Shown here: piece by piece, positions 724-12,844 of the stretch | Layout: each line of letters starts with the position of its first letter | Numbering within the stretch: position 1 is the stretch's first letter | Assembly: GCA_019412865.1 (NCBI GenBank) | Contig: DXOJ01000216.1 | Location: 1 to 13,035, forward strand | Direction of reading: 5' to 3' | DNA from: Bacteroides sp. | GTDB lineage: Bacteria > Bacteroidota > Bacteroidia > Bacteroidales > Bacteroidaceae | Length of the DNA stretch: 13,035 bases | Notes under the pieces: generated by a model | What the model was told of the DNA's origin: nothing | The model's input: the letters and a program-made list of their open reading frames with translations, nothing else | The model's database searches: none | Translations under genes and position numbers: made by a program

Positions 724-2034
724 ATGAAACACACCAAGCAGTCCATCATTTCGAAAGATGGCATCAGTTATCTTATACCTTTTATTCTCATTACCTCCTG
801 TTTTGCGTTATGGGGATTTGCCAATGATATTACCAATCCGATGGTAAAGGCATTCTCTAAAATCTTCCGGATGAGTGCCACCGACGGGGCATTGGTACAG
901 GTTGCCTTCTATGGAGGCTACTTTGCAATGGCTTTCCCGGCTGCCATCTTCATCCGCAAATATTCCTACAAAGCAGGTGTTTTGTTAGGACTGGGTATGT
1001 ATGCTTTCGGAGCCTTCTTATTCTTCCCCGCCAAAATGACGGGTGAGTACTATCCGTTTCTGATTGCTTATTTTATTCTGACCTGCGGATTATCTTTCCT
1101 CGAAACAAGCTGTAATCCGTATATTCTTTCCATGGGAACGGAAGAAACAGCTACCCGGCGATTGAACCTTGCACAGTCTTTCAACCCGATGGGGTCACTT
1201 CTCGGAATGTATGTAGCCATGCAGTTCATTCAAGCGAAATTGCATCCGATGTGTACCGAAGACCGCGCATTGCTTAACGACAGCGAATTTCAAGCAATCA
1301 AAGAAAGCGACCTTAGCGTCCTGATTGCTCCTTATCTTATCATCGGACTGGTTATCGTAGCGATGTTGCTTCTGATACGGTTCGTCAAGATGCCCAAAAA
1401 TGGAGATCAGAACCATAAAATAGACTTTTTCCCTACACTGAAACGTATTTTCACCCAAACACGTTATCGTGAAGGTGTGATTGCCCAATTCTTCTATGTA
1501 GGTGCACAAATTATGTGCTGGACATTTATCATTCAGTATGGAACCCGTTTGTTCATGTCGCAAGGTATGGACGAGAAAAGTGCGGAAGTGTTATCACAGC
1601 AATATAATATTGTGGCAATGGTGATATTCTGTATCAGCCGTTTCATCTGTACATTCATTCTGCGCTATCTTAATGCAGGCAAATTATTGATGATTCTCGC
1701 TATCTTCGGAGGTATTTTCACATTAGGAACTATCTTCCTTCAGGACATCTACGGCATGTATTGTCTGGTAGCCATATCGGCCTGTATGTCACTAATGTTC
1801 CCTACCATCTACGGTATCGCCTTGAAAGGTATGGGAGATGATGCGAAGTTCGGAGCTGCCGGCCTTATTATGGCTATCCTGGGAGGTTCTGTTCTTCCAC
1901 CGCTACAGGCAAGCATCATTGATTTGGAACAAATAGCGTGGTTACCGGCTGTCAATGTTTCATTTATTCTTCCGTTCATCTGTTTTCTTGTAATTATCGG
2001 CTACGGTTACCGCACAGTGAAAAGAAACTGGTAA
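724..2034 (+). CDS. fucP: FucP-type L-fucose:H+ symporter (MFS)
   Basis: This 436-residue inner-membrane protein has about 12 hydrophobic segments, and its length is close to the 438 residues of E. coli FucP. It should import L-fucose with protons. Matches to FucP include SYLIPF near residue 15, AFYGGYF (61-67), RKYSYKAG (78-85), SFLETSCNPY (124-133), RRLNLAQSFNPMG (145-157), AQFFYVGAQIMCW and LMFPTIYGIALKGMG. Glu127 corresponds to the proton-coupling Glu135 of E. coli. The position of the second key acid, Asp46, is Asn38 here, with an acid three residues earlier (Asp35). It is the last gene of the fucose unit: two hairpins follow the stop. Related Bacteroides permeases for other sugars share this fold, so fucose specificity leans on the neighbouring kinase and mutarotase. 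Confidence 0.88.
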   Translation: MKHTKQSIISKDGISYLIPFILITSCFALWGFANDITNPMVKAFSKIFRMSATDGALVQVAFYGGYFAMAFPAAIFIRKYSYKAGVLLGLGMYAFGAFLFFPAKMTGEYYPFLIAYFILTCGLSFLETSCNPYILSMGTEETATRRLNLAQSFNPMGSLLGMYVAMQFIQAKLHPMCTEDRALLNDSEFQAIKESDLSVLIAPYLIIGLVIVAMLLLIRFVKMPKNGDQNHKIDFFPTLKRIFTQTRYREGVIAQFFYVGAQIMCWTFIIQYGTRLFMSQGMDEKSAEVLSQQYNIVAMVIFCISRFICTFILRYLNAGKLLMILAIFGGIFTLGTIFLQDIYGMYCLVAISACMSLMFPTIYGIALKGMGDDAKFGAAGLIMAILGGSVLPPLQASIIDLEQIAWLPAVNVSFILPFICFLVIIGYGYRTVKRNW

Positions 2035-2052
2035 AATACATATCTAAAAATA

Positions 2053-2081
2053 GTGACGGTATCACATTGGTATACCGTCAC
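2053..2081 (+). other. Hairpin just after fucP (10-bp stem, 9-nt loop)
   Basis: GTGACGGTAT at 2053-2062 pairs perfectly with ATACCGTCAC at 2072-2081 around a 9-base loop. No U-tract follows, so it is not a complete terminator by itself. It may protect the 3' end of the fucose mRNA or pause polymerase. Its left arm begins with the same AATAGTGACG ten-mer (2049-2058) that starts the next hairpin (2093-2102). Confidence 0.7.
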
Positions 2082-2092
2082 CATCTCACTCG

Positions 2093-2136
2093 AATAGTGA
2101 CGCCATCCCTACTGGATAGCGTCACTATTTTTTTCC
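2093..2136 (+). terminator. Strong rho-independent terminator of the fucose operon
   Basis: AATAGTGACGC (2093-2103) pairs with GCGTCACTATT (2119-2129) for 11 perfect base pairs. After one C/A mismatch the stem continues with ATCC/GGAT and closes on a 5-base loop. A run of T follows immediately (2128-2134, then CC and TTTT). This separates the fucose genes from the sigma-factor unit. Confidence 0.88.
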
Positions 2137-2241
2137 TTTTCACAGTTAAGAGTTCATAAAAACACAGAACTTGAAGTCGTTTTTTTAGTTTCCTTTTTCG
2201 CATACTAATCTTGGCTTCTTAGTATTGTTGAATTATTTACA

Positions 2242-2249
2242 TACATTTG
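2242..2249 (+). promoter_or_regulatory. Candidate -7 box (TAnnTTTG) of the sigma-factor gene
   Basis: TACATTTG at 2242-2249 is an exact match to the Bacteroides housekeeping -7 consensus. It lies 27 bases before the ATG at 2277, which places the transcript start at about 2256. No good TTTG element is seen about 20 bases further upstream; the nearest candidates are TTAG at 2219-2222 and TTG at 2228-2230. If the box is real, the in-frame TTG at 2247 cannot be the start codon because it would not be transcribed. Confidence 0.5.
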
Positions 2250-2276
2250 TCTCATACCAACAGACCTGATAAACCT

Positions 2277-2828
2277 ATGAGCCAAAACCAAGACCCTATT
2301 CATCTAGCCCGCCAATTCGAAATTATATTTACCACGCACTATTCCGCTGTTAAATATTTCTCTATAAACTTGCTCAAATCTGAAGAGGACGCAGAAGATA
2401 TCATTCAGGATGTGTTCGCTAAATTATGGACACAACCGGAGGTCTGGCTGAAAAACAAAGACATAGGCCAGTATATCTACGCCATGACTAAAAACACAAC
2501 TTTCAATTTCATCAAACGCAAAAGAGTGGAACAATCCTATCAGGAACAATTATCGCAGAAATATCTAATCGAAGACTTACTAAAATCCGAAGATACTCTC
2601 GACCCTATCTATTATAAAGAAGCACTATTAATCATCCGCCTAATTCTCGACCGCCTTCCCGAACGCCGCAGAAAAGTTTTTGAAATGAGCCGCATCAACA
2701 ATATGAGTAATATGGAGATAGCACAAACACTCAATATTTCCGTACGAACTGTGGAACACCAAATCTATCTGACCCTGCTCGAAATAAAAAAAACTATTTT
2801 TATTGCATTTTTCTTGTGTTTCTTTTAA
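2277..2828 (+). CDS. ECF-type RNA polymerase sigma factor (PUL regulator)
   Basis: This 183-residue sigma-70 family protein has only regions 2 and 4, as ECF factors do. Region 2 spans about residues 17-82, with the core-binding DAEDIIQDVFAKLW at 38-51 and AMTKNTTFNFIKRKR at 69-83. Region 4 spans about 123-171, with LDRLPERRRKVFEMSR and the helix-turn-helix MSNMEIAQTLNISVRTVEHQ (143-162). It is followed by a FecR-like anti-sigma gene and a SusC with an STN domain, the usual set for trans-envelope control of glycan-use genes in Bacteroides. It should bind RNA polymerase and activate the susC operon when glycan is sensed. ATG 2277 is preferred over the in-frame TTG at 2247 because a -7 promoter box overlaps the latter. 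The last 12 residues (TIFIAFFLCFF end) are strikingly hydrophobic. Confidence 0.93.
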   Translation: MSQNQDPIHLARQFEIIFTTHYSAVKYFSINLLKSEEDAEDIIQDVFAKLWTQPEVWLKNKDIGQYIYAMTKNTTFNFIKRKRVEQSYQEQLSQKYLIEDLLKSEDTLDPIYYKEALLIIRLILDRLPERRRKVFEMSRINNMSNMEIAQTLNISVRTVEHQIYLTLLEIKKTIFIAFFLCFF

Positions 2829-2884
2829 GTAATCCCCCATTTTCGATTGTGCTAATAGTGTAACCACTAAAAAGAACAGCGCAA

Positions 2885-3871
2885 ATGAGGAACTTTTTTC
2901 AGAAAATACTGATATTATTTACCGGCAATAACTATCCGGAAGCTACCCAAAATGAATTCTATCAATGGCTTGTAGATGAGGATCATGCATCCCAGAAAGA
3001 AGATGCTTTGAGAGAGCTATGGAACAAAGCGCAACGGCAAAAAAACGTGAAAGGAATGCAGAAGTCTTACGAGCGCCTGAAAAAACAGGAAGGTATTCCA
3101 ACCGTACCCAAAGAGAGAAGAATTCGCCCAATACATATATGGCAATCCGCAGCTGCTATCTTATTCCTCCTGCTTGCCTCTTCGGTCTATCTATCGACTG
3201 TAGGCACAAAAGCGGAAACCGACTTGTTACAGCAATATATTCCGATAGCAGAAATGAGAAGTTTGACGCTGCCCGACGGAACAAAAGTGCAACTCAACTC
3301 GAAAAGTACACTTTTATATCCGCAGGAGTTTACCGGAGATAGTCGTAGTGTATTCCTGTTAGGCGAAGCCAACTTCAAGGTTAAGCCGGACAAGAAACGT
3401 CCGTTTATCGTGAAATCCAATGATTTACAGATTACTGCTTTAGGTACGGAATTTAATGTATCTGCCTACCCTGAAAGCCAGGAAATAGCAACGACCCTCA
3501 TTTCAGGCAGTATCCGTGTAGATTATAACAATCTGACAACAAGTGTCATTCTCCATCCCAACGAACAGTTTGCCTATAACAGAAACAATAAGAAATATGA
3601 TCTCTCCAATCCGGATATGGACGATGTGACAGCCTGGCAACGCGGAGAACTGGTTCTGCAAAAGATGACGCTGACGGACATCATCAACGTATTGGAGCGA
3701 AAATATCCTTATGCCTTTGTATATAGTATCAAGAACCTCAAAAACGACAGGTTCAGTTTTCGTTTCAAGGACAACGCACCACTCGAAGAAGTGATGGAAA
3801 TCATCGTGAACGTGGTCGGACAAATGGACTATAGAATAGTAGAAGACAAGTGCTATCTAACAAGAATATAA
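2885..3871 (+). CDS. FecR-like anti-sigma factor, inner membrane
   Basis: This 328-residue protein is built in the usual three parts. A cytoplasmic N-terminal segment (about 1-85) would hold the sigma factor. One membrane segment lies at about 87-104 (WQSAAAILFLLLASSVYL). A periplasmic part carries the FecR domain, including LPDGTKVQLNSKSTLLYP (129-146), GEANFKVKPDKKRPFIVKS (160-178) and the TALGTEFNV motif (184-192), followed by a DUF4974-like C-terminal domain (about 258-325). The periplasmic part is expected to receive the signal from the STN domain of the downstream SusC and release the sigma factor. It starts 56 bases after the sigma gene, in the same direction. Both its length and domain order are normal for the family. 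Confidence 0.93.
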   Translation: MRNFFQKILILFTGNNYPEATQNEFYQWLVDEDHASQKEDALRELWNKAQRQKNVKGMQKSYERLKKQEGIPTVPKERRIRPIHIWQSAAAILFLLLASSVYLSTVGTKAETDLLQQYIPIAEMRSLTLPDGTKVQLNSKSTLLYPQEFTGDSRSVFLLGEANFKVKPDKKRPFIVKSNDLQITALGTEFNVSAYPESQEIATTLISGSIRVDYNNLTTSVILHPNEQFAYNRNNKKYDLSNPDMDDVTAWQRGELVLQKMTLTDIINVLERKYPYAFVYSIKNLKNDRFSFRFKDNAPLEEVMEIIVNVVGQMDYRIVEDKCYLTRI

Positions 3872-3894
3872 CTTTTTAACCTTATATGCCATGC

Positions 3895-3936
3895 AAAAAA
3901 ATACCCGGAACAGAGGCCTCACTCCGTCCCGGATAT
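3895..3936 (-). terminator. Minus-strand intrinsic terminator in the anti-sigma/susC gap
   Basis: Read on the minus strand, ATATCCGGGACGGAG (3936-3922) pairs along all 15 positions with CTCTGTTCCGGGTAT (3915-3901) across a 6-base loop, including three G-U pairs. Seven T follow in the minus-strand reading (from 3901 to 3895). On the plus strand the same three positions become C/A mismatches and there is no T-run after the stem. The structure therefore makes sense only as a terminator of minus-strand transcription. Confidence 0.7.
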
Positions 3937-3956
3937 GAAATCTGAATTCCCAATAT

Positions 3957-3970
3957 TAGAGTTTACTCTA
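3957..3970. promoter_or_regulatory. Palindrome TAGAGT-TT-ACTCTA upstream of susC
   Basis: Two perfect 6-base arms (3957-3962 and 3965-3970) flank a 2-base centre, 46 bases before the susC ATG. It could be a protein-binding dyad near the sigma-dependent promoter of susC, or a small hairpin in the leader and in the predicted antisense RNA. No function can be assigned from the sequence alone. Confidence 0.35.
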
Positions 3971-4015
3971 CAAATTACCTCGAAATAATTTAGTCAATAA
4001 CCTAATACTAAGAAA

Positions 4016-7000
4016 ATGCTACAAATTTATAAATTTATAGTAGACAAGAAGACAAAGGGAAGAAGTTTTATGCTTTTTTTCTGTTTGATGCTCGCCACAA
4101 CAGTTTCCCTTGCACAAAATGGCGCTAAAATCACTATTAAAAAGAATAGTATATCTGTGATTGAAGCACTGAAAGAAGTTGAAAAACAATCCGGTATGTC
4201 CGTAGGCTACAACGATTCCCAACTGAAAAACAAACCGGCCATCACCCTCAATATAGAGGCGGCTTCGTTGGAAAATGCGCTCGCTCAAATTCTCAAAGGT
4301 ACAGGTTTCACCTATCAACTGAAAGAGAAATATATCATGATTATTCCGGAACAAAAGAAAGAAAGCAACCCGACCAAAAAGATCACCGGTAAGGTAGTTG
4401 ATGAAAACAACGATCCCTTGATCGGAGTGAACATCAAAGTGGAAGGCACTGCCGCCGGATCTATCACAGACATCGACGGGAACTTCCTGATCGAAGCTTC
4501 CACCGGAAATACACTGACATTTACTTATATCGGTTATACTTCAGGAAGCATTAAAGTCACCAACCAGAATAATTACCGCATTCAACTGACAGCCGATACG
4601 CAACAGCTATCGGAAGTTGTAGTAACTGCTCTCGGCATCAAACGCGAGCAAAAAGCATTGAGCTACAACGTCCAGCAAATCAGAGCAGACAAGATGCCGG
4701 AAATAAAAGACGCCAACTTTATCAACAGTTTGAGCGGAAAGGCTGCCGGCGTTGTCATTAATGCTTCTTCTTCCGGTGTGGGAGGTGCCAGTAAAGTGGT
4801 GATGCGTGGTACAAAGTCTATCGAGCAGAGCAGTAATGCGCTATACGTCATTGACGGTATTCCGATGTATAACTTCGGCGGTGGAGGCGGTACTGAATTT
4901 GACTCCAAAGGTGCTACGGAAGCCATTGCGGATATTAATCCCGACGATATTGAAAGCATCTCTTTCCTGACAGGTGCGGCAGCAGCCGCAATGTATGGCA
5001 GCAACGCTGCCAACGGCGCTATTGTAGTGACTACCAAGCGGGGACAGATAGGAAAACTGTCGGCTACTTTCTCAAGCAGCATGGAATTTATGAACCCATT
5101 TGTATTGCCCAAGTTTCAGAATCGGTATGGAACCGGTACACGGGGCGATGCGGAAGGTTCTCCCATATTAAGTTGGGGGCCTAAACTGAATCCGGCCAAC
5201 CAAACAGGATATGAACCCACCGACTTCTTTGATACGGGAGCGGCTTACAGCAACTCCATCACCCTCTCGACAGGTACGGACAAGAACCAAACGTTCTTTT
5301 CTGCCGCAGCAGTCAATTCAGAAGGAATGATTCCGAACAATAGGTACAACCGATATAATTTCACATTTCGCAATACGACTCATTTCCTGAATGACAAGAT
5401 GAAATTGGATGTAGGAGCCAGTTATATCATACAAAATGACCGCAACATGACCAATCAAGGAGTTTATTCCAATCCATTGGTTTCGGCTTACCTGTTTCCA
5501 CGGGGCGATGACTTTTCTCTAGTAAAAGCCTTCGAACGTTATGACGAAGCACGTAAAATCAATGTGGCTTACTGGCCGCAAGGTGAAGGGGATTTGCGTA
5601 TGCAGAATCCTTACTGGATTGCTTACCGGAACGTCCGCACGAATGAGAAAAAGCGTTATATGCTGAATGCCGGACTGACATACGACATTTTGGACTGGCT
5701 GAATGTATCGGCACGTATCCGCGTGGATAACACCGACAATACTTATCAGCAAAAGCTATACGCAAGTACGATCTCTACACTGACCGAAGGTAGTACCCAG
5801 GGACATTACACCATCCAAAAGGTGAACGAAACACAGACGTATGCCGACTTCATGGTGAATATCAATAAACGCATTGACGACTTCACGGTAGTAGTCAATG
5901 CCGGTACTTCATTGAGCGACAACTCCAGTGATTTACTGGGTTACGGTGGTCCGATTCGCGACACGGGAGTACCCAACGTATTCAATGTATTTGATTTGGA
6001 TAATGCCAAGAAACGGGCAACACAGGAGGGTTGGGAAGAAATGACGCAGTCTATTTTTGCCAGTGCGGAAATAGGATGGAAAAGCATGCTGTACCTGACG
6101 TTGACCGGACGTAACGACTGGGCTTCCCAGTTGAAAGGCTCGAATCCTACTTCTTTCTTCTATCCATCGGTAGGTCTTTCGGCAGTAATCAGCGAAATGG
6201 TGACATTACCCAAAGCGATTGATTACCTGAAAGTACGCGGATCATTCAGTTCTGTGGGTACCCCCTACCCGCGTTTTCTGGTACAACCGACTTACAGCTA
6301 TGACCCTACCAAACAGGACTGGAACGCCAAAACCCATTATCCTATCGGCAAACTGAAACCGGAACGTACCGACTCCTGGGAAATAGGTGTGGACGGAACT
6401 TTCTTCAAGGATTTCAAAGTCAGTGGTTCATTCTACTATGCCAATACCTATAACCAGACATTCGACCCGAAAATCACCGTATCTTCCGGCTATTCGACTC
6501 TTTATGTGCAAACCGGTTATGTACGCAATCTCGGTGTCGAGGGGCTACTCTCTTACGGACATACATGGCGCGACTTCGGATGGAACAGTAACTTCACTTT
6601 CTCCTGGAATAAAAACAAAATTGTGGAGTTGGTTAAGGACTATGTGCATCCCGAAACCGGAGAAATCGTCAACAAAGACCGCCTTGAACTAAAAGGACTG
6701 GGATATACCAAATTTATCCTGAAAGAAGGAGGCACACTGGGAGACCTGTACACGAATGCCGACTTCATACGTGACGATAAAGGCTATATCCAGATAGACA
6801 AAAATGGGGATGTCGCCAAAACGGATAATCTACCTGACATCAAATTAGGCAGCGTATTTCCTAAAGCAAACCTGGCATGGAACAACAGCTTTTCTTACAA
6901 AGGTATTTATGCGGGATTCCAATTAAGCGCCCGCCTGGGAGGTATTGTTTATTCAGCCACACAGGCTGCTCTCGACCAATATGGCGTATCCGAAGCATCT

Positions 7001-7354
7001 GCTGCCGCCCGTGACCGTGGCGGAGTACTCGTCAACGGACGTAGCTGGGTGAACGCACAGCAGTATTACGAGATTGTAGCTACCTCAAGCGGGCTGCCGC
7101 AATATTATACATATAGTGCCACAAATCTGCGTTTGCAGGAAGCGCACATCGGATACACCATCCCCCGCAAATGGTTGGGTAATATCTGCGACATCAACGT
7201 CTCTGTAGTGGGACGTAACCTGTGGATGATTTATTGCAAAGCACCTTTCGACCCGGAAGCGATTGCCACAACAAGCAATTTCTATCAGGGAATCGACTAC
7301 TTCATGATGCCCAGTACACGCAATTTTGGTTTTAATGTAAAGATTAACTTCTAA
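4016..7354 (+). CDS. SusC-like TonB-dependent glycan transporter with STN signalling domain
   Basis: This 1112-residue outer-membrane protein should import glycan fragments together with the SusD-like lipoprotein encoded 4 bases later. In order it has a signal peptide ending near SLAQ (residues 31-34), an STN domain (about 38-111), a carboxypeptidase-D-like repeat (about 123-192, ITGKVVDENNDPLIGVNIKV), a TonB-box-like LSEVVVTALGIKRE (199-211), a plug domain (about 212-345, with LYVIDGIPM and NAANGAIVVTTKRGQ), and a 22-strand-type barrel. The barrel includes the family hallmark LTGRNDWASQL and a terminal phenylalanine. The STN domain is the part that contacts FecR anti-sigma factors, so this protein probably also signals glycan arrival. 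ATG 4016 is used; a later in-frame ATG at 4070 would leave a shorter but workable signal peptide. Its leader carries a predicted antisense RNA. The substrate cannot be read from the sequence. Confidence 0.95.
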   Translation: MLQIYKFIVDKKTKGRSFMLFFCLMLATTVSLAQNGAKITIKKNSISVIEALKEVEKQSGMSVGYNDSQLKNKPAITLNIEAASLENALAQILKGTGFTYQLKEKYIMIIPEQKKESNPTKKITGKVVDENNDPLIGVNIKVEGTAAGSITDIDGNFLIEASTGNTLTFTYIGYTSGSIKVTNQNNYRIQLTADTQQLSEVVVTALGIKREQKALSYNVQQIRADKMPEIKDANFINSLSGKAAGVVINASSSGVGGASKVVMRGTKSIEQSSNALYVIDGIPMYNFGGGGGTEFDSKGATEAIADINPDDIESISFLTGAAAAAMYGSNAANGAIVVTTKRGQIGKLSATFSSSMEFMNPFVLPKFQNRYGTGTRGDAEGSPILSWGPKLNPANQTGYEPTDFFDTGAAYSNSITLSTGTDKNQTFFSAAAVNSEGMIPNNRYNRYNFTFRNTTHFLNDKMKLDVGASYIIQNDRNMTNQGVYSNPLVSAYLFPRGDDFSLVKAFERYDEARKINVAYWPQGEGDLRMQNPYWIAYRNVRTNEKKRYMLNAGLTYDILDWLNVSARIRVDNTDNTYQQKLYASTISTLTEGSTQGHYTIQKVNETQTYADFMVNINKRIDDFTVVVNAGTSLSDNSSDLLGYGGPIRDTGVPNVFNVFDLDNAKKRATQEGWEEMTQSIFASAEIGWKSMLYLTLTGRNDWASQLKGSNPTSFFYPSVGLSAVISEMVTLPKAIDYLKVRGSFSSVGTPYPRFLVQPTYSYDPTKQDWNAKTHYPIGKLKPERTDSWEIGVDGTFFKDFKVSGSFYYANTYNQTFDPKITVSSGYSTLYVQTGYVRNLGVEGLLSYGHTWRDFGWNSNFTFSWNKNKIVELVKDYVHPETGEIVNKDRLELKGLGYTKFILKEGGTLGDLYTNADFIRDDKGYIQIDKNGDVAKTDNLPDIKLGSVFPKANLAWNNSFSYKGIYAGFQLSARLGGIVYSATQAALDQYGVSEASAAARDRGGVLVNGRSWVNAQQYYEIVATSSGLPQYYTYSATNLRLQEAHIGYTIPRKWLGNICDINVSVVGRNLWMIYCKAPFDPEAIATTSNFYQGIDYFMMPSTRNFGFNVKINF
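4022..4029 (-). promoter_or_regulatory. Minus-strand -7 box for the predicted antisense RNA
   Basis: On the minus strand this reads TAAATTTG, an exact TAnnTTTG match. A TTTG lies further upstream on that strand (plus-strand CAAA at 4053-4056), but the spacing of 23 bases is longer than usual. The box overlaps the first codons of susC. The surrounding AT-rich sequence raises the risk of a chance match; the well-placed terminator downstream is what gives it weight. Confidence 0.45.
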
Positions 7355-7358
7355 AACT

Positions 7359-8954
7359 ATGAATACTCAAATGAAAGAATACAGAAAAGCAACCCTCCGA
7401 CTGGCATACCTGTTAACGCTGATGCTATGGACGGGAAGTTGTATCGATATGGATATCAATCGTAATCCTTACGAGACAACGCAGGATGAACTGATGCGCG
7501 AAAACCATATCATCGGTTCGTCTCTAAAGAGCATGGAAGCATTGGTGGTCCCCACGCAAGAACATCTTTATCAATTTGTGGAAGCGATGTGCGGAGGAGC
7601 CTACGGGCGTTATTTTGGAGAGACTCGTGTGGGTTGGACTGAAAAATACTCGACTTATAATCCCAAGTCGGACTGGCTGAAGGCTTCGTTCTCCGATCCT
7701 ATCTCGGAAATGTATCCTTCCTACCGGGATATTATCAACCGTACCAATGACCCCGTTGCACTGGCATTCGCCAAGATTCTGCGAGTCGCTATCATGCACC
7801 GGTCTACGGATATGTTCGGGCCGATTCCCTATACCAAAGTATTGGGAGATAAAACGGAAGGTGACGGCCTTAGTGCTCCTTATGACTCTCAAGAGGAGGT
7901 TTATGTGGCTATGTTCAAGGAATTGGAAGAAGCAGATGAAGCTCTGAAGGAGAATCTAGGTCTAAGTGCGGAAGGATTTAAGAAACTGGATAATCTTTAT
8001 TATGGAGATGTGCGGAAATGGTATAAATACCTTCACTCGTTACAGCTTCGCATGGCCATGCGTATCGTTTATGTGAAACCGGAACTGGCCAGGGAAATAG
8101 CCGAGAAAGCCGTAGCCGCAGGTGTGATAGAGAACAATGAGGACAACGCGCAACTGCATGTGGAGGAGAATCGTTCGGCTCTCTGTTTCAATGATTGGAA
8201 GGATTACCGGATAGCTGCGGAAATCGTTTCCTATATGCAGGGATATAACGATCCGCGTTTGGAAAAATACTTCACCCAGGGAAAGTATCAGGATGATACC
8301 GATTACTATGGGCTACGCATTGGTATTCTTCCTTCCAAAGTGACGGACGACGAGTTGATACAAACCTATTCCAACCGTTTGATGACTGCCAATGATACGT
8401 ATATGTGGATGACTGCCGCCGAGGTCACGTTCCTTCGCGCCGAAGGTGCCCTGCGGGGATGGGCAATGAGCGGAGATGCCCAACAGCTATATGAGAAGGC
8501 GATCACCCTTTCCTTTGAGCAATGGGGCGCAAGCGGAGCAAGCGGATACTCCCAGAATAAAGCATTGGTGCCGGGGGCTTACAAAGACCCGAGAGGTACA
8601 TACAGCGCCCAATCTCCGAGCAGCATCACCATTGCCTGGAACGAGGACAAGGAGAATACCCGTTTCGAAGAAAACCTGGAACGTATCATTACTCAAAAAT
8701 GGATTGCCATGTTTCCTCTGGGCATTGAAGCCTGGTGCGAACATCGCCGCACAGGGTATCCTAAATTCCTTCCGATAATGGACAACAAGGGAGTGGGAAT
8801 CACTAACCTGACACTGGGAATACGACGTCTCTCCTATCCTGCCGAAGAATATCAGCTGAATGCGGAAAATATGCTCGGTGCCCTGCGAAAGCTCAATGGA
8901 GAAGATAACGGCGCTACCCGCTTATGGTGGGACTGCAATCCGAATGTAAAATAA
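7359..8954 (+). CDS. SusD-like surface glycan-binding lipoprotein (SusD/RagB superfamily)
   Basis: This 531-residue lipoprotein would sit as a lid on the SusC-like barrel and bind glycan at the cell surface. It starts 4 bases after susC and is surely cotranscribed. The signal peptide ends in LMLWTGSC, making Cys28 the lipidated residue, with acidic residues close behind (CIDMD). Family features include ILRVAIMHRSTDMFGPIPYT (140-159), WYKYLHSLQLRMAMRI (221-236), the helical repeat MTAAEVTFLRAEGALRGW (351-368) with YEKAITLSFEQWG (378-390), and IITQKWIAMFPLGIEAWCEHRRTGYP (443-468). The last two point to the SusD-like group 2 branch. A second in-frame ATG at 7371 is an equally plausible start and gives a cleaner signal peptide. 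Ligand is not predictable beyond the context of host-type glycans. Confidence 0.94.
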   Translation: MNTQMKEYRKATLRLAYLLTLMLWTGSCIDMDINRNPYETTQDELMRENHIIGSSLKSMEALVVPTQEHLYQFVEAMCGGAYGRYFGETRVGWTEKYSTYNPKSDWLKASFSDPISEMYPSYRDIINRTNDPVALAFAKILRVAIMHRSTDMFGPIPYTKVLGDKTEGDGLSAPYDSQEEVYVAMFKELEEADEALKENLGLSAEGFKKLDNLYYGDVRKWYKYLHSLQLRMAMRIVYVKPELAREIAEKAVAAGVIENNEDNAQLHVEENRSALCFNDWKDYRIAAEIVSYMQGYNDPRLEKYFTQGKYQDDTDYYGLRIGILPSKVTDDELIQTYSNRLMTANDTYMWMTAAEVTFLRAEGALRGWAMSGDAQQLYEKAITLSFEQWGASGASGYSQNKALVPGAYKDPRGTYSAQSPSSITIAWNEDKENTRFEENLERIITQKWIAMFPLGIEAWCEHRRTGYPKFLPIMDNKGVGITNLTLGIRRLSYPAEEYQLNAENMLGALRKLNGEDNGATRLWWDCNPNVK

Positions 8955-8978
8955 TGTGGAACTTAAACCCAAGATACA

Positions 8979-10013
8979 ATGAAACAGAATTCATTCATAA
9001 GTGTCATATTGACCGTAGCCTGCTCACTGATGTTCGTTGCCTGTAGCGACTGGACGGAACCGACACCGGTTGATTACAACCCTATATTTCCCGACGAACA
9101 AGACCCCAGCTTGCATGAAAAATACGAGCAAAGTCTGAAAGAATACAAAAACCGGAAGCATACGTTAATGTTAATACGTTTTGCCAACAATCCGGGTACG
9201 ACATTGGGCGAACAGGATTTCTTGCGTTCCTTGCCCGATAGCGTAGATTTTGTGGTGCTGACCAACGCTGATAATCTGTCCGTTTATGATAAGGAAGACA
9301 TATCCAAACTCAAACGGACCGGCACCAAATTTCTCTATTACAAGAATTTATCCGAATTCTACGACCAATGCGAAGAGACAGAAAACCTGGAAGAATTCAA
9401 AACGAAAATGAATGCGGCATTGAAAAACGGGGAGAGTGATGAATTTGACGGTTATTATGTGCAGTTTGGTCGTGCCGGAAGTATGATGCATGTCGATTTC
9501 TTCAATGAGGTAACGACGGCTATCCGGGAAAAACTTGCCGCTATCGGCGGTCCGAAAGCTAATAATGGAAAGTTGGTTTTCTTTGATGGCATCGTCACAT
9601 TTACAGTGGATTATAGCGGAAGATACGAAGAGCCGTTCATCGATTTGGTAGACTATTTCGTGGATGGGCAAATTGTGTTGCTTGAAAGCTCACTCGAAAT
9701 AAAACTGAATATGAGCCAACCTGTAGGTTTCTATGGGAAAATGCCCAAAGAGAAAGTGATAACGACAGCCACTCCTCCGACCGATGACGGTAAAACCGGT
9801 ATCATCAGCCGGGAAGATTTGGATGTTATACAAACCTCGGAAGGGATGGCCTACATCATCAATCATTTCATCACAGGACTGGGTAACAATGGTCCGCTGG
9901 CAGGAGTTTCTATCTACAATGCCAATGAAGATTATCTCGCCACCGATGGGGTGACTAACTACCGCCGTATACGTGATGCTATCCAAAAACTGAACCCATC
10001 ACCGATTAATTAA
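8979..10013 (+). CDS. GH18-like lipoprotein with a degenerate active site (probable glycan-binding protein)
   Basis: This 344-residue lipoprotein has a signal peptide ending in SLMFVAC, with Cys22 lipidated and followed by SDWTE, an acidic stretch that fits surface export. The mature part resembles the small GH18-like proteins found in Bacteroides N-glycan loci, with barrel-type strands such as HTLMLIRF (61-68), VDFVVLTNAD (89-98), TKFLYYKN (116-123), KLVFFDGI (198-205) and LAGVSIYNAN (307-316). The strand that should carry the catalytic DxxDxDxE motif reads DGYYVQFG at 157-164: only the first Asp remains, and the catalytic Glu position is Gly. It is therefore likely to bind glycan rather than cut it. 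It lies 24 bases after the SusD gene and overlaps the ORF-level start of the next gene by one base. Fold assignment is from motif pattern only and is moderately sure. Confidence 0.75.
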   Translation: MKQNSFISVILTVACSLMFVACSDWTEPTPVDYNPIFPDEQDPSLHEKYEQSLKEYKNRKHTLMLIRFANNPGTTLGEQDFLRSLPDSVDFVVLTNADNLSVYDKEDISKLKRTGTKFLYYKNLSEFYDQCEETENLEEFKTKMNAALKNGESDEFDGYYVQFGRAGSMMHVDFFNEVTTAIREKLAAIGGPKANNGKLVFFDGIVTFTVDYSGRYEEPFIDLVDYFVDGQIVLLESSLEIKLNMSQPVGFYGKMPKEKVITTATPPTDDGKTGIISREDLDVIQTSEGMAYIINHFITGLGNNGPLAGVSIYNANEDYLATDGVTNYRRIRDAIQKLNPSPIN

Positions 10014-10015
10014 TG

Positions 10016-10024
10016 AAAGGAGGA
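10016..10024 (+). promoter_or_regulatory. Strong Shine-Dalgarno sequence deciding the start at 10028
   Basis: AAAGGAGGA matches 8 of 9 bases of the ideal AAAGGAGGT and sits 3 bases before the ATG at 10028. It lies right after the stop codon of the previous gene (10011-10013). The alternative ATG at 10013 overlaps that stop codon and has no such site. Strong sites of this kind are uncommon in Bacteroides. Confidence 0.6.
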
Positions 10025-10027
10025 ACT

Positions 10028-11263
10028 ATGAAACGATATAAAATAATCATCTCTCTGGCTGCAATCATCTGCGGACTGATGATTGCCTGTGACAATACGG
10101 ATTACAGCAATAAAGCACCATTCGACAACATGGTCTATATCAAGGAAGCCAGTAACAGCAATTCAGAAAGAGTGACTTTCCGAAATACGCTGAATGAACA
10201 GAAACGTGCCTTCAGCGCCAAGTTGACTTACCCGGCAGGAAAAGACATCGTAGTGAAGCTGAAAGCGGATCCCGGACTGATAAACGAATTCAATGCCCGG
10301 CACGGGACTGATTATGGAATGCTGGATAGTAAATATTATAGCCTGTCGAACAGCGAACTGATTATCAAAGCCGAAAAGAGTGAATCATTGATTGATACGA
10401 TCTATTTTAATAACCTGTTAGATCTGGAGATTGATAAAACTTATCTGGTTCCGCTCACCATCTCTGAAACGTCGGGTGGCGTTCATCTATTGAACGGTTC
10501 GAAAACATTGTTCTATCTGGTGCGCCGTTCAAGCGCTATCACGGTAGCCGCCAACCTGAAAGACAATTATCTGGAAGTGCCTACTTTCCTCAACGAAGAG
10601 AAAAATGCCTGTCTGAAAGAATTAGGTCAGATTACCATGGAAGCACTGGTATATGTAGAGGACTTTACATACAGCGGACCAAGCAATACGGCTGGTGCAT
10701 CGGATATCAGTACGATCATGGGAGTAGAACAGCATTTCTTAATGCGTATAGGTGATACAAGTTTCCCACGCCAACAGTTGCAGATGCAGGGACCGGACGG
10801 AGTCAAATTCCCCGCCGCCGACAGGGCTAAGTCACTGAATGCAATGACATGGTATCATATAGCGCTGGTGTACAACGCCAAGGAACATTTTATTGCCTAT
10901 TATGTGAACGGACAACTGCAAAGTCAGGATATCTCTTATGGAAAAGGAGCTACTGTGGATATCTGTGGAACGCCGGATTGCGAATTCCAGATAGGACGCT
11001 CTTATGAAGATGAGCTACGGCAACTCAACGGTAACATCGCAGAGATACGTATCTGGAACACTTGCCGTACGAAAGAGGAAATCTGGACGAATATGTATAA
11101 AGTGGAAGATCCTGAAAACGAAGAAAGCCTGCTTGCTTACTGGAAATTTAATGAAGGTGAGGGAAACATTGTCAAGGACCATTCGAAACACGGATTCGAT
11201 GCAGTATCTGCCGAACCTCTTGTGTGGCCGACGGGAATCGAAATTCCACAAATCAACAAGTAA
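10028..11263 (+). CDS. DUF1735 + LamG/concanavalin-like lipoprotein (probable surface glycan-binding protein)
   Basis: From ATG 10028 the protein has 411 residues. The signal peptide ends in GLMIAC (Cys21 lipidated), followed by DNTD. A DUF1735 domain (named for the N-terminal domain of BT_3987-like GH18 enzymes) covers about 33-165, with VVKLKADPGLINEFNARHG (75-93) and LVPLTISE (140-147). A LamG/laminin-G-like sandwich domain covers about 175-400, with WYHIALVYNAKEHFIAYYVNG (275-295), LNGNIAEIRIWN (333-344) and LLAYWKFNEGEGN (368-380). LamG domains of this type bind sugars and carry no catalytic residues, so a role in glycan capture at the surface is likely. A start at 10013 would add five residues, but the strong ribosome site at 10016-10024 favours 10028. 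The next gene follows after 21 bases. Confidence 0.86.
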   Translation: MKRYKIIISLAAIICGLMIACDNTDYSNKAPFDNMVYIKEASNSNSERVTFRNTLNEQKRAFSAKLTYPAGKDIVVKLKADPGLINEFNARHGTDYGMLDSKYYSLSNSELIIKAEKSESLIDTIYFNNLLDLEIDKTYLVPLTISETSGGVHLLNGSKTLFYLVRRSSAITVAANLKDNYLEVPTFLNEEKNACLKELGQITMEALVYVEDFTYSGPSNTAGASDISTIMGVEQHFLMRIGDTSFPRQQLQMQGPDGVKFPAADRAKSLNAMTWYHIALVYNAKEHFIAYYVNGQLQSQDISYGKGATVDICGTPDCEFQIGRSYEDELRQLNGNIAEIRIWNTCRTKEEIWTNMYKVEDPENEESLLAYWKFNEGEGNIVKDHSKHGFDAVSAEPLVWPTGIEIPQINK

Positions 11264-11284
11264 TCATTCACTTTAAAGATAACC

Positions 11285-12844
11285 ATGGACATGAAAAGAA
11301 ATATAAACTTCAAAAATGTTCTCTGCATGGCTGCCATTACATTAGTAACCGGCATGCTAGGAGGCTGCGAAGATAATTCCATTGCCACTCCCGTAGGTAA
11401 ATTACCTAACGAGACGGCTTTAGACAATAACTTTGGCATGCTAAAATGTGATATGACAACCAGTGACCTGGAAATCACCATGACCAATACCAAGACTCCC
11501 GATTTTGCATTCTTCTACCAAACGGTGAAGCCGGTGGCACAGGACACCCGAATCACAATGAAAATCGACCTCGACTTAGTAGACAAATACAATGAAGAAC
11601 ACGGTACGGAATACCGGAAAATGTCTACTATCAGCATTGAGGGCATCAGTAACAATGGTGCAATGACTATTAAGGCAGGAGATACAATGTCGGATACTAT
11701 CATGGTACGCCTGAATCCGCTAGGCACATTGCATGATTATTCTTTGCTCCCTATTACCGTAGAACTACCGGAAGAAAGCGGAATTCGTCCGTCACGGGAT
11801 AGTAATGAAATCTATTACAAGATTTATTATAAACGCTCTACTTATCCGTGGTTGAGCCCGATGAAGGCTGATATGAAAAAGTACAAGATGGTAGGGTTTA
11901 TTGATGGCGAAAAAGTCAACGCCTCCATTGCCAAAGAATTTATCATGGTATTATATGATAATGAAACATTCGGTCCCGGACATTATGAGTTATGGGAAAC
12001 GTCGTGGTATGCCTATTTATATGACATCATTAATGTGAATGCCGCAACACTGGGATATGCGAATGGAAAAGTGACTCTGAACCAATCAGCCAATTTCAAA
12101 AAGCAATTAAGCAATATGTCGTCACTCTCCAGCTATGGTATAAAGCGTTGCGTCACCCTTAAAGCAGAAGGGACCGGCTTGGGATTCTGCAACCTGACAG
12201 ATGAGCAGATTACAGCCTTTGTAGCGGAAGTCAAGAAGCTCGCCAACTACCGTGTAGATGGCATTAATCTCATGGACGAAGGTGCCGAATATGGTATAAA
12301 CGGACATCCGGCTGCCAATGCGACCTCGTATCCGAAGCTCATCAAAGCACTACGGGAATCTTTAGGCAAGACCAAACTGATTACAGTTACCATAACGGGT
12401 GATCCGGCCGGTTCACTAGCCTCCGAGGCTGCGGGTATCAGAGCAGGTGAATATATTGATTATGCCTGGACATGGGTAAATACCAAAATTATGAATCCAT
12501 GGGAGGATAGCTCGATTGAAAAACCAATAGCAGGACTGGACAAATCTCAATATGGCGGTTTCAGCACCGACGAATATACGTTCGATTATGAAAATGACGA
12601 ATCGTATCCGGAAACGTTACGAGAAAAGTTATATGACAAAGGTCTTGGCAAACTTTACATAATGCGTAATATCCCTTTCTGGTCGGACGCACTGGAAGCA
12701 ACACCATATCATGCTAACATAAATGCAGGGGCAGCAGCCTTTTATAGAGTGGAAGGAGGCCATAAATATGAACCGGACATCAACTATTTGCATAATGGTA
12801 AATACAAGGATATGAAAGGGGATAAAAACTATTACGAGATGTAG
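11285..12844 (+). CDS. DUF1735 + GH18-like lipoprotein with an altered catalytic motif
   Basis: This 519-residue lipoprotein has Cys28 in a GMLGGC lipobox followed by EDN. A DUF1735 domain covers about 48-184 and shares the LVDKYNEEHGTEY pattern with its neighbour's domain. A GH18-type barrel covers about 198-500, as in BT_3987-like endo-beta-N-acetylglucosaminidases, which cut the chitobiose core of N-glycans. Supporting strands are YKMVGFIDG (200-208), KRCVTLKAEGTGLG (287-300), LITVTITG (365-372), YIDYAWTWVN (390-399) and KLYIMRNIPFWS (456-467). The catalytic segment reads DGINLMDE at 325-332. The general-acid Glu332 is kept, but the Asp two residues before it, needed to support the substrate's N-acetyl group, is Met330, and another motif Asp is Asn328. 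It may be a binding protein or have unusual activity. ATG 11285 or 11291 could be the start. It is the last gene of the operon. Confidence 0.85.
   Translation: MDMKRNINFKNVLCMAAITLVTGMLGGCEDNSIATPVGKLPNETALDNNFGMLKCDMTTSDLEITMTNTKTPDFAFFYQTVKPVAQDTRITMKIDLDLVDKYNEEHGTEYRKMSTISIEGISNNGAMTIKAGDTMSDTIMVRLNPLGTLHDYSLLPITVELPEESGIRPSRDSNEIYYKIYYKRSTYPWLSPMKADMKKYKMVGFIDGEKVNASIAKEFIMVLYDNETFGPGHYELWETSWYAYLYDIINVNAATLGYANGKVTLNQSANFKKQLSNMSSLSSYGIKRCVTLKAEGTGLGFCNLTDEQITAFVAEVKKLANYRVDGINLMDEGAEYGINGHPAANATSYPKLIKALRESLGKTKLITVTITGDPAGSLASEAAGIRAGEYIDYAWTWVNTKIMNPWEDSSIEKPIAGLDKSQYGGFSTDEYTFDYENDESYPETLREKLYDKGLGKLYIMRNIPFWSDALEATPYHANINAGAAAFYRVEGGHKYEPDINYLHNGKYKDMKGDKNYYEM

Follow-up and report, generated by a model that had tools for sequence, protein, structure and literature searches.

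The gap between an anti-sigma gene and a susC gene in the analyzed Bacteroides sp. DNA (GenBank assembly GCA_019412865.1, contig DXOJ01000216.1; the whole stretch of 13,035 nucleotides is referred to as the window) most likely holds, on its minus strand, a conserved antisense-RNA gene that is a member of the known DonS kind. The comparisons presented here strongly support a minus-strand RNA gene in a DonS-like position, and we consider it probable that this is a DonS-type cis-antisense RNA gene repressing susC. Anatomy, strand, fold and conservation are established by comparing sequences; transcription, pairing and direction of effect we infer, with repression of susC proposed by analogy with DonS.

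The window opens with the last part of a fucose/rhamnose-type operon (FGGY kinase, rhaM, MFS permease). Behind the MFS gene, at 2046–2132, two inverted repeats were seen by eye, the second followed by a T-run, and they look like the end of that operon. The PUL and the predicted RNA gene are organized as follows:

2247–2828, plus strand: ECF sigma factor gene (Pfam Sigma70_r2 and r4_2; a TTG start is listed, with an ATG further in)
2885–3871, plus strand: FecR-type anti-sigma gene, fecR (Pfam FecR, FecR_C)
3891–3938, plus strand: possible mini-ORF of 15 codons, its ATG adjoining an A-run (sequence; ATG at the same place in relatives)
3895–4016, minus strand: predicted cis-antisense RNA of about 122 nt with two conserved stems (box and terminator; covariance model; covariation)
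3895–3901, minus strand: T-run of the predicted antisense terminator (sequence)
3901–3936, minus strand: predicted terminator hairpin of 15 pairs, three of them G-U (folding; terminator scan; covariation)
3947–3959, minus strand: 3′ arm of the predicted long 5′ stem, pairing with 4002–4014 (inverted repeat, 77% complementary; minus-strand fold; covarying helices)
4002–4014, minus strand: 5′ arm of the same stem, complement of the stretch directly before the susC ATG (minus-strand fold; inverted repeat; covariation)
4022–4029, minus strand: TAnnTTTG (−7) box of the putative antisense promoter, within susC codons 3–5 (sequence; kept in relatives)
4016–7354, plus strand: susC, a TonB-dependent importer gene with an STN domain and the putative target (Pfam STN, CarbopepD_reg_2, Plug)
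7359–12844, plus strand: rest of the PUL, with susD, GH18_BT1044-like, BT_3987-like_N/laminin-G and BT_3987-like_N protein genes (Pfam)

The fecR-to-susC gap measures 144 nt, and the PUL is presumably of the N-glycan type. The PUL of the nearest genome examined (G001, locus L209) shares 99.6% identity with that of the window over 9176 bases; susC of that locus (from 327) has an in-frame stop at codon 534, and the window susC is open.

The hairpin in the gap is fully paired on the minus strand (3936 to 3901; 15/15 pairs by hand count, seven G-C and three G-U, with a loop of 6 nt), and a T-run (3901–3895) follows it on that strand only. A G-U pair retained on one strand reads as an A-C mismatch on the complement, and the folding energies differ in the same sense: the minus-strand hairpin reaches −23.0 kcal/mol (z −4.43, equaled by 0/200 shuffles), the plus strand, with its three A-C mismatches, −12.9 kcal/mol (z −2.74, 1/200 shuffles). 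For the entire gap, z is −4.48 on the minus strand (0/200 shuffles) and −1.35 on the plus strand (22/200). A terminator scan of 2000–4400 on both strands returned five sites versus 2.0 expected, the longest stem being this hairpin. A sense-strand function of the hairpin, which could form the 3′ end of the sigma-fecR mRNA, stabilize that mRNA or structure the susC leader, would fit its location 30 nt behind fecR and the existence of the weaker plus-strand fold; the missing T-run and the conversion of the wobbles into mismatches speak against it, and we regard it as very improbable. A sense ECF promoter within the hairpin (GGAA / TGAAAT elements) was also considered and dropped, because [TG]GAAAT was not enriched (8/23 versus 11/40).

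An exact TAnnTTTG box, TAAATTTG, is located at 4029–4022 of the minus strand, 86 nt upstream of the stem. Ten such boxes occur in the window, 10.5 being expected, and the box alone is therefore without meaning; it gains weight because it is kept at the same place in relatives. From box and terminator, the antisense RNA is predicted to run from about 4016 to 3895, with a length of 122 nt (computed on an identical leader, L039). These results agree with the first-pass annotation, which had described a 15/15 hairpin with three G-U pairs and a T-run on the minus strand only (confirmed by count and folding), an exact box at the first susC codons (present, at codons 3–5) and a minus-strand RNA of about 120 nt ending near 3895.

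Copies of the element were sought in relatives. Of 61 related genomes searched at the DNA level, five had matches, four of them clear copies; the fifth match (G019, 39 bases) was not recovered by a covariance model built from an alignment of eight sequences. Searching 119 genomes of the genus with this model yielded 49 copies, including the loci used to build it, in 24 genomes (at most six per genome; 21 of the 70 good-quality genomes), and since these genomes were drawn from a larger group and the filters were strict, weak copies will have been missed. All 49 copies stand before susC and 48 after fecR. With the window included, the 50 members have SusC downstream in 50/50 and FecR upstream in 49/50, and a stem of at least 10 pairs with a T-run in 50/50. 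Of the conservation expected in orthologous loci by the first-pass annotation, stem and T-run were thus found throughout, whereas the exact −7 box is present in only 35/50 members.

An exact pattern scan of named genomes, from which records near the window's own genome were possibly excluded, found 20 stretches, among them ones in B. fragilis Q1F2, B. faecis, B. congonensis, B. xylanisolvens XB1A, B. finegoldii, B. neonati, B. pyogenes, B. heparinolyticus, one Tannerellaceae MAG and one Dysgonamonadaceae MAG. The covariance model confirmed 7/7 of the stretches given to it, both MAGs among them. By MAG name, these two copies (L137, Tannerellaceae; L140, Dysgonamonadaceae) lie outside the Bacteroidaceae, which may reflect either PUL transfer or mis-binned contigs. 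A search of the window against Rfam 15 at E up to 5 gave six matches, all under the family gathering score and none in the gap; five relatives gave none at E up to 1, and a further locus (L157) none at the gathering score.

The members retain a common fold. A model-fitted alignment of 45 distinct rows has both partners changed in 17 of its 24 pairs, and 93.6% of its cells are paired; 0/500 shuffles, which ignore relatedness, reach the observed values, and slid structures attain at most 7 pairs and 48.8% of cells. An alignment of 37 members made with MAFFT and folded afresh, independently of the model, gave the same two stems with 26 pairs, of which 16 show double-sided changes, and folds to −29.8 kcal/mol on the minus strand versus −11.4 on the plus strand; these members are distinct from, yet related to, the model sequences. 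Where individual RNAs were tested, the fold was more stable for the predicted RNA than for its complement in 23/23 cases, which is a further point against a sense-strand role of the hairpin.

The wobble pairs follow the same strand. On the minus strand, the model pairs comprise 158 G-U and 29 A-C cells, a ratio of 5.4, versus ratios of 0.5 to 3.1 (about 1.4 in sum) for control pairs slid by 1–3 columns. The bias persists among the 22 members that are less than 85% alike (65 versus 13 cells) and in the set of 37 (120 versus 14). With 16 A-C cells, the outermost terminator pair (columns 149/183) probably lies outside the stem. For the 37 members, the structure that is optimal on the plus strand (12 pairs, −11.4 kcal/mol) also favors G-U over A-C (51 versus 17), and the structure under study was chosen on the minus strand; on these grounds the wobble bias is taken below full weight. 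The proposal that wobbles betray selection on the minus-strand RNA accordingly holds in statistical terms, with part of the bias arising from the choice of structure. At the level of sequence, covariation and strand bias show that the RNA fold itself is under selection, and together with conservation they lend strong support to the DonS-like minus-strand RNA gene at the susC leader that the first-pass annotation had predicted.

The box is maintained against the reading frame. The 25 distinct susC starts of the MLQ type have CAA as codon 3 in 24/25 and TAT or TAC as codon 5 in 25/25, and codon 4 encodes I, N, K, T, M or S, its first base always being A. Because codon 4 varies in amino acid while only the A that TAnnTTTG requires is constant, it is the DNA box that is kept and not the protein. 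The exact box occurs in 33/33 members of the MLQ/MQQ type and in 2/16 of a second (MNxY) subfamily, and is absent in an outlier (L113). In the second subfamily (MNLY, MNFY, MNYY), susC begins 13 nt further in and most boxes are inexact, for example TATCTTAG. The place of the other subfamily's ATG reads GCG or ACG in two MNxY-type leaders (L110 and L004, respectively).

We further surveyed leaders between fecR and susC, with susC recognized by HMM and starts set at the first ATG of the open frame, which can be wrong (L016). In G001, susC comes next in 29 of 39 fecR loci, the 10 loci without a susC match being excluded, among them one with a minus-strand hairpin (L031). At a threshold of −12 kcal/mol, a minus-strand terminator was detected in 18/29 leaders and a plus-strand terminator in 0/29, compared with two of each among 40 control susC genes of the same genome not near fecR (Fisher p 2e-7; four of each in the controls at −10). 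These controls are the top 40 by score of 137 TIGR04057 matches with fecR neighbors skipped, not a random draw, and their search region extends up to 250 nt, whereas fecR-linked leaders are cut at the fecR stop. Three further genomes have susC at 44 of 50 fecR loci, a count that leaves out one partial fecR match in G105, with 26 minus and 2 plus terminators. Pooled over the four genomes (G001, G105, G097, G064), the minus terminator occurs in 44/73 leaders and the plus terminator in 2/73, which again argues against the sense-strand role.

A box that starts across from the first base of the susC ATG, or 13 nt into the gene (offsets 0/13), is present in 34/73 leaders, and in G001 in 13/29 versus 1/40 controls. 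It is associated with the hairpin: of the 59 leaders measuring 80 nt or longer, 32/44 with a hairpin have the box, compared with 2/15 without one (p 1e-4). Combining box and hairpin predicts 32 RNAs of 77–137 nt, 29 of them within 78–128 nt. Counted against the proposal are the scarcity of exact boxes in the second (MNxY) subfamily, the 12/44 hairpin loci lacking a box at these offsets, the 29/73 leaders lacking a hairpin, and the −33 element, of which no clear instance was seen among the 34 boxes (the most frequent TTG spacing, 20 nt, was seen in 4/34).

These data also bear on the view that the hairpin arose by chance and that antisense transcription of this AT-rich DNA would be spurious. 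Noise may account for many antisense RNAs, as one source warns (PMC7366714), and the −7 box alone occurs at chance frequency; nevertheless, conservation and covariation over 45 distinct copies and the excess of terminators linked to FecR make this reading extremely improbable, and for the anatomy of the gene the comparisons effectively refute it.

The leaders contain a second recurrent element, a possible mini-ORF between fecR and the terminator. A start-like AACCTTAAA...ATG with an early stop occurs in 29/59 leaders of at least 80 nt, versus 5/80 control tiles and 1/118 reverse-complement tiles; the shortest ORFs have at most 9 codons in 25 of these 29 leaders, but also in 5/5 positive control tiles. 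The narrower context C[CT]TATG is found in 17/59 leaders versus 3/40 controls, and all 17 of these leaders have ORFs of at most 9 codons (48.5% expected, p 5e-6). With a slightly wider definition, the element is present in 32/44 leaders with the hairpin versus 3/15 without it (p 6e-4), and in the 32 leaders with both, the distance from the ATG to the stem is 9–12 nt in 6, 20–37 nt in 23 and larger in 3. A looser count, of any ATG-stop ORF ending before the hairpin, gives 36/44 leaders versus 52/120 control tiles. The sequence AACCTTAAA was considered as a promoter and dropped, its distance to the ATG being too variable by eye.

In the family of the window, an ATG stands beside an A-run in 45/46 distinct upstream stretches (the exception is L008), and a bare ATG-stop, with TAA, TAG or TGA, in 22/46; the latter count is weaker than it appears, since with the A-run following, a T alone gives TAA. 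The ORF of the window itself has 15 codons and passes through the hairpin, which disfavors a strict mini-ORF rule. Among the titles listed by a literature search, none reported such a leader mini-ORF. We put forward only tentatively, and as rather unlikely, that the leaders of ECF-sigma PULs are composite switches in which the antisense RNA is joined by a translated mini-ORF, often of 1–9 codons or a bare ATG-stop, that has its own start-like context and an ATG at a set distance before the antisense terminator, coupling translation and antisense control. If so, a ribosome parked at the mini-ORF of the sense mRNA would meet the hairpin and decide whether the antisense RNA zips up, or the mini-ORF would end translation coming from fecR.

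For the antisense RNA gene we propose the following mechanism. The housekeeping RNA polymerase would start at the −7 box inside the first susC codons, and antisense transcription would pass over the susC start codon and then the entire leader before ending at the intrinsic terminator directly behind fecR. The product would be a structured RNA about 122 nt long. This RNA would pair over its full length with the susC leader and start codon, so that translation is blocked and the mRNA exposed to decay. The block would operate while the PUL is little transcribed. Once the cognate ECF sigma factor is released, sense mRNA arriving from upstream would outnumber the antisense RNA, and opposing polymerases may also damp antisense transcription upon induction.

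The leader length of the BT_3983 mRNA (PMC11697453) was considered as a guide to the sense start and dropped. The reason is that this susC gene is not known to lie directly behind fecR. A parallel is PUL24 of B. thetaiotaomicron, which has the same sigma/anti-sigma/susC order and a 5′ end, seen only in an anti-sigma mutant, 291 nt upstream of the susC-like BT1875 and inside the anti-sigma gene (PMC11501099). If that position holds here too, the sense mRNA crosses the whole antisense unit. Such an arrangement, together with the antisense promoter facing the incoming sense polymerase, would also suit a transcriptional collision, in which antisense transcription itself hinders sense transcription into the leader and the RNA is a by-product. 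A by-product, however, would be under no constraint to retain two stems with compensatory changes and minus-strand wobbles, and we consider the collision unlikely. Some PUL antisense RNAs are stated to correlate positively and others negatively with their PUL (PMC10994844), which we count against the repression proposed for the antisense RNA.

Calculated duplex energies are −100 to −152 kcal/mol for the RNA with its cognate leader and −19 to −76 kcal/mol for whole RNAs with sister leaders, the best unrelated-leader duplex reaching −60.5 kcal/mol (three RNAs tested). Because cognate duplexes are very strong and 83/86 sister duplexes fall within the unrelated range, the RNA more likely acts chiefly in cis. 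An additional or predominant action in trans on sister PUL leaders, like that of FopS, would draw on the 5′ part of the RNA, which is similar to the conserved start region found in sister susC genes; when only the 5′ 45 nt are used, 13/86 sister pairings (six genomes) beat the best of 198 unrelated ones (−19.0 kcal/mol), and some cross-talk may occur. Shared ancestry of the leaders also accounts for this match, and whole-RNA sister duplexes exceed the unrelated range in three cases only, so that we hold trans action to be quite unlikely.

DonS and the DonS-like PUL antisense RNAs reportedly go back to an original study by Cao et al. 2016. Later papers describe a family of 78–128 nt RNAs opposite susC homologs (PMC7366714), 32 PUL antisense RNAs in B. 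thetaiotaomicron (PMC10994844), and DonS itself as divergent to an N-glycan PUL of B. fragilis, with a mechanism called unknown (PMC11697453). The predicted RNA of the window resembles this family in length (122 nt from box and terminator versus 78–128 nt; PMC7366714). It is likewise placed opposite the 5′ end of a susC homolog, with its box in codons 3–5 and its terminator before the leader, in a PUL with an ECF sigma/anti-sigma pair that appears, from its GH18 and BT_3987-like genes, to be of the host-glycan type. One covariance-model copy, in G105, lies in an N-glycan type PUL (sigma by eye; FecR, SusC, SusD, EndoS-like GH18, BT_3987-like_N). We take G105 to be the genome of B. fragilis NCTC 9343; B. 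fragilis Q1F2 likewise has a copy. Since DonS is described beside such a PUL (PMC11697453), this copy is probably DonS itself, matched by description and PUL context and not by DonS sequence.

Three points are firm additions to the known kind: the covariance model, the wobble bias toward one strand, and the retention of the box against the reading frame. PUL antisense RNAs have so far been found by RNA-seq, and the model and the rules (a fecR-susC leader, a minus-strand terminator, a box touching or just inside susC) find many without RNA data. The N-glycan type PUL of the window is a good test case for the silencing of sugar importers in gut Bacteroides.

FopS and GibS, according to one report, repress susC by pairing at the translation start and have a canonical promoter and an intrinsic terminator (PMC11697453); a promoter box, an intrinsic terminator and complementarity to the susC start are equally predicted for the RNA of the window. 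FopS is described as a trans-acting RNA of about 65–70 nt with an open 5′ seed and one terminator hairpin, whereas the RNA of the window is about 122 nt long, lies opposite its target, and has its 5′ part in a covarying stem rather than an open seed. In plasmid copy-number and type I toxin systems, a structured antisense RNA is fully complementary to the leader. The predicted RNA of the window is likewise structured and complementary to the leader but differs from these systems in its putative target, a nutrient importer operon with its own ECF sigma factor.
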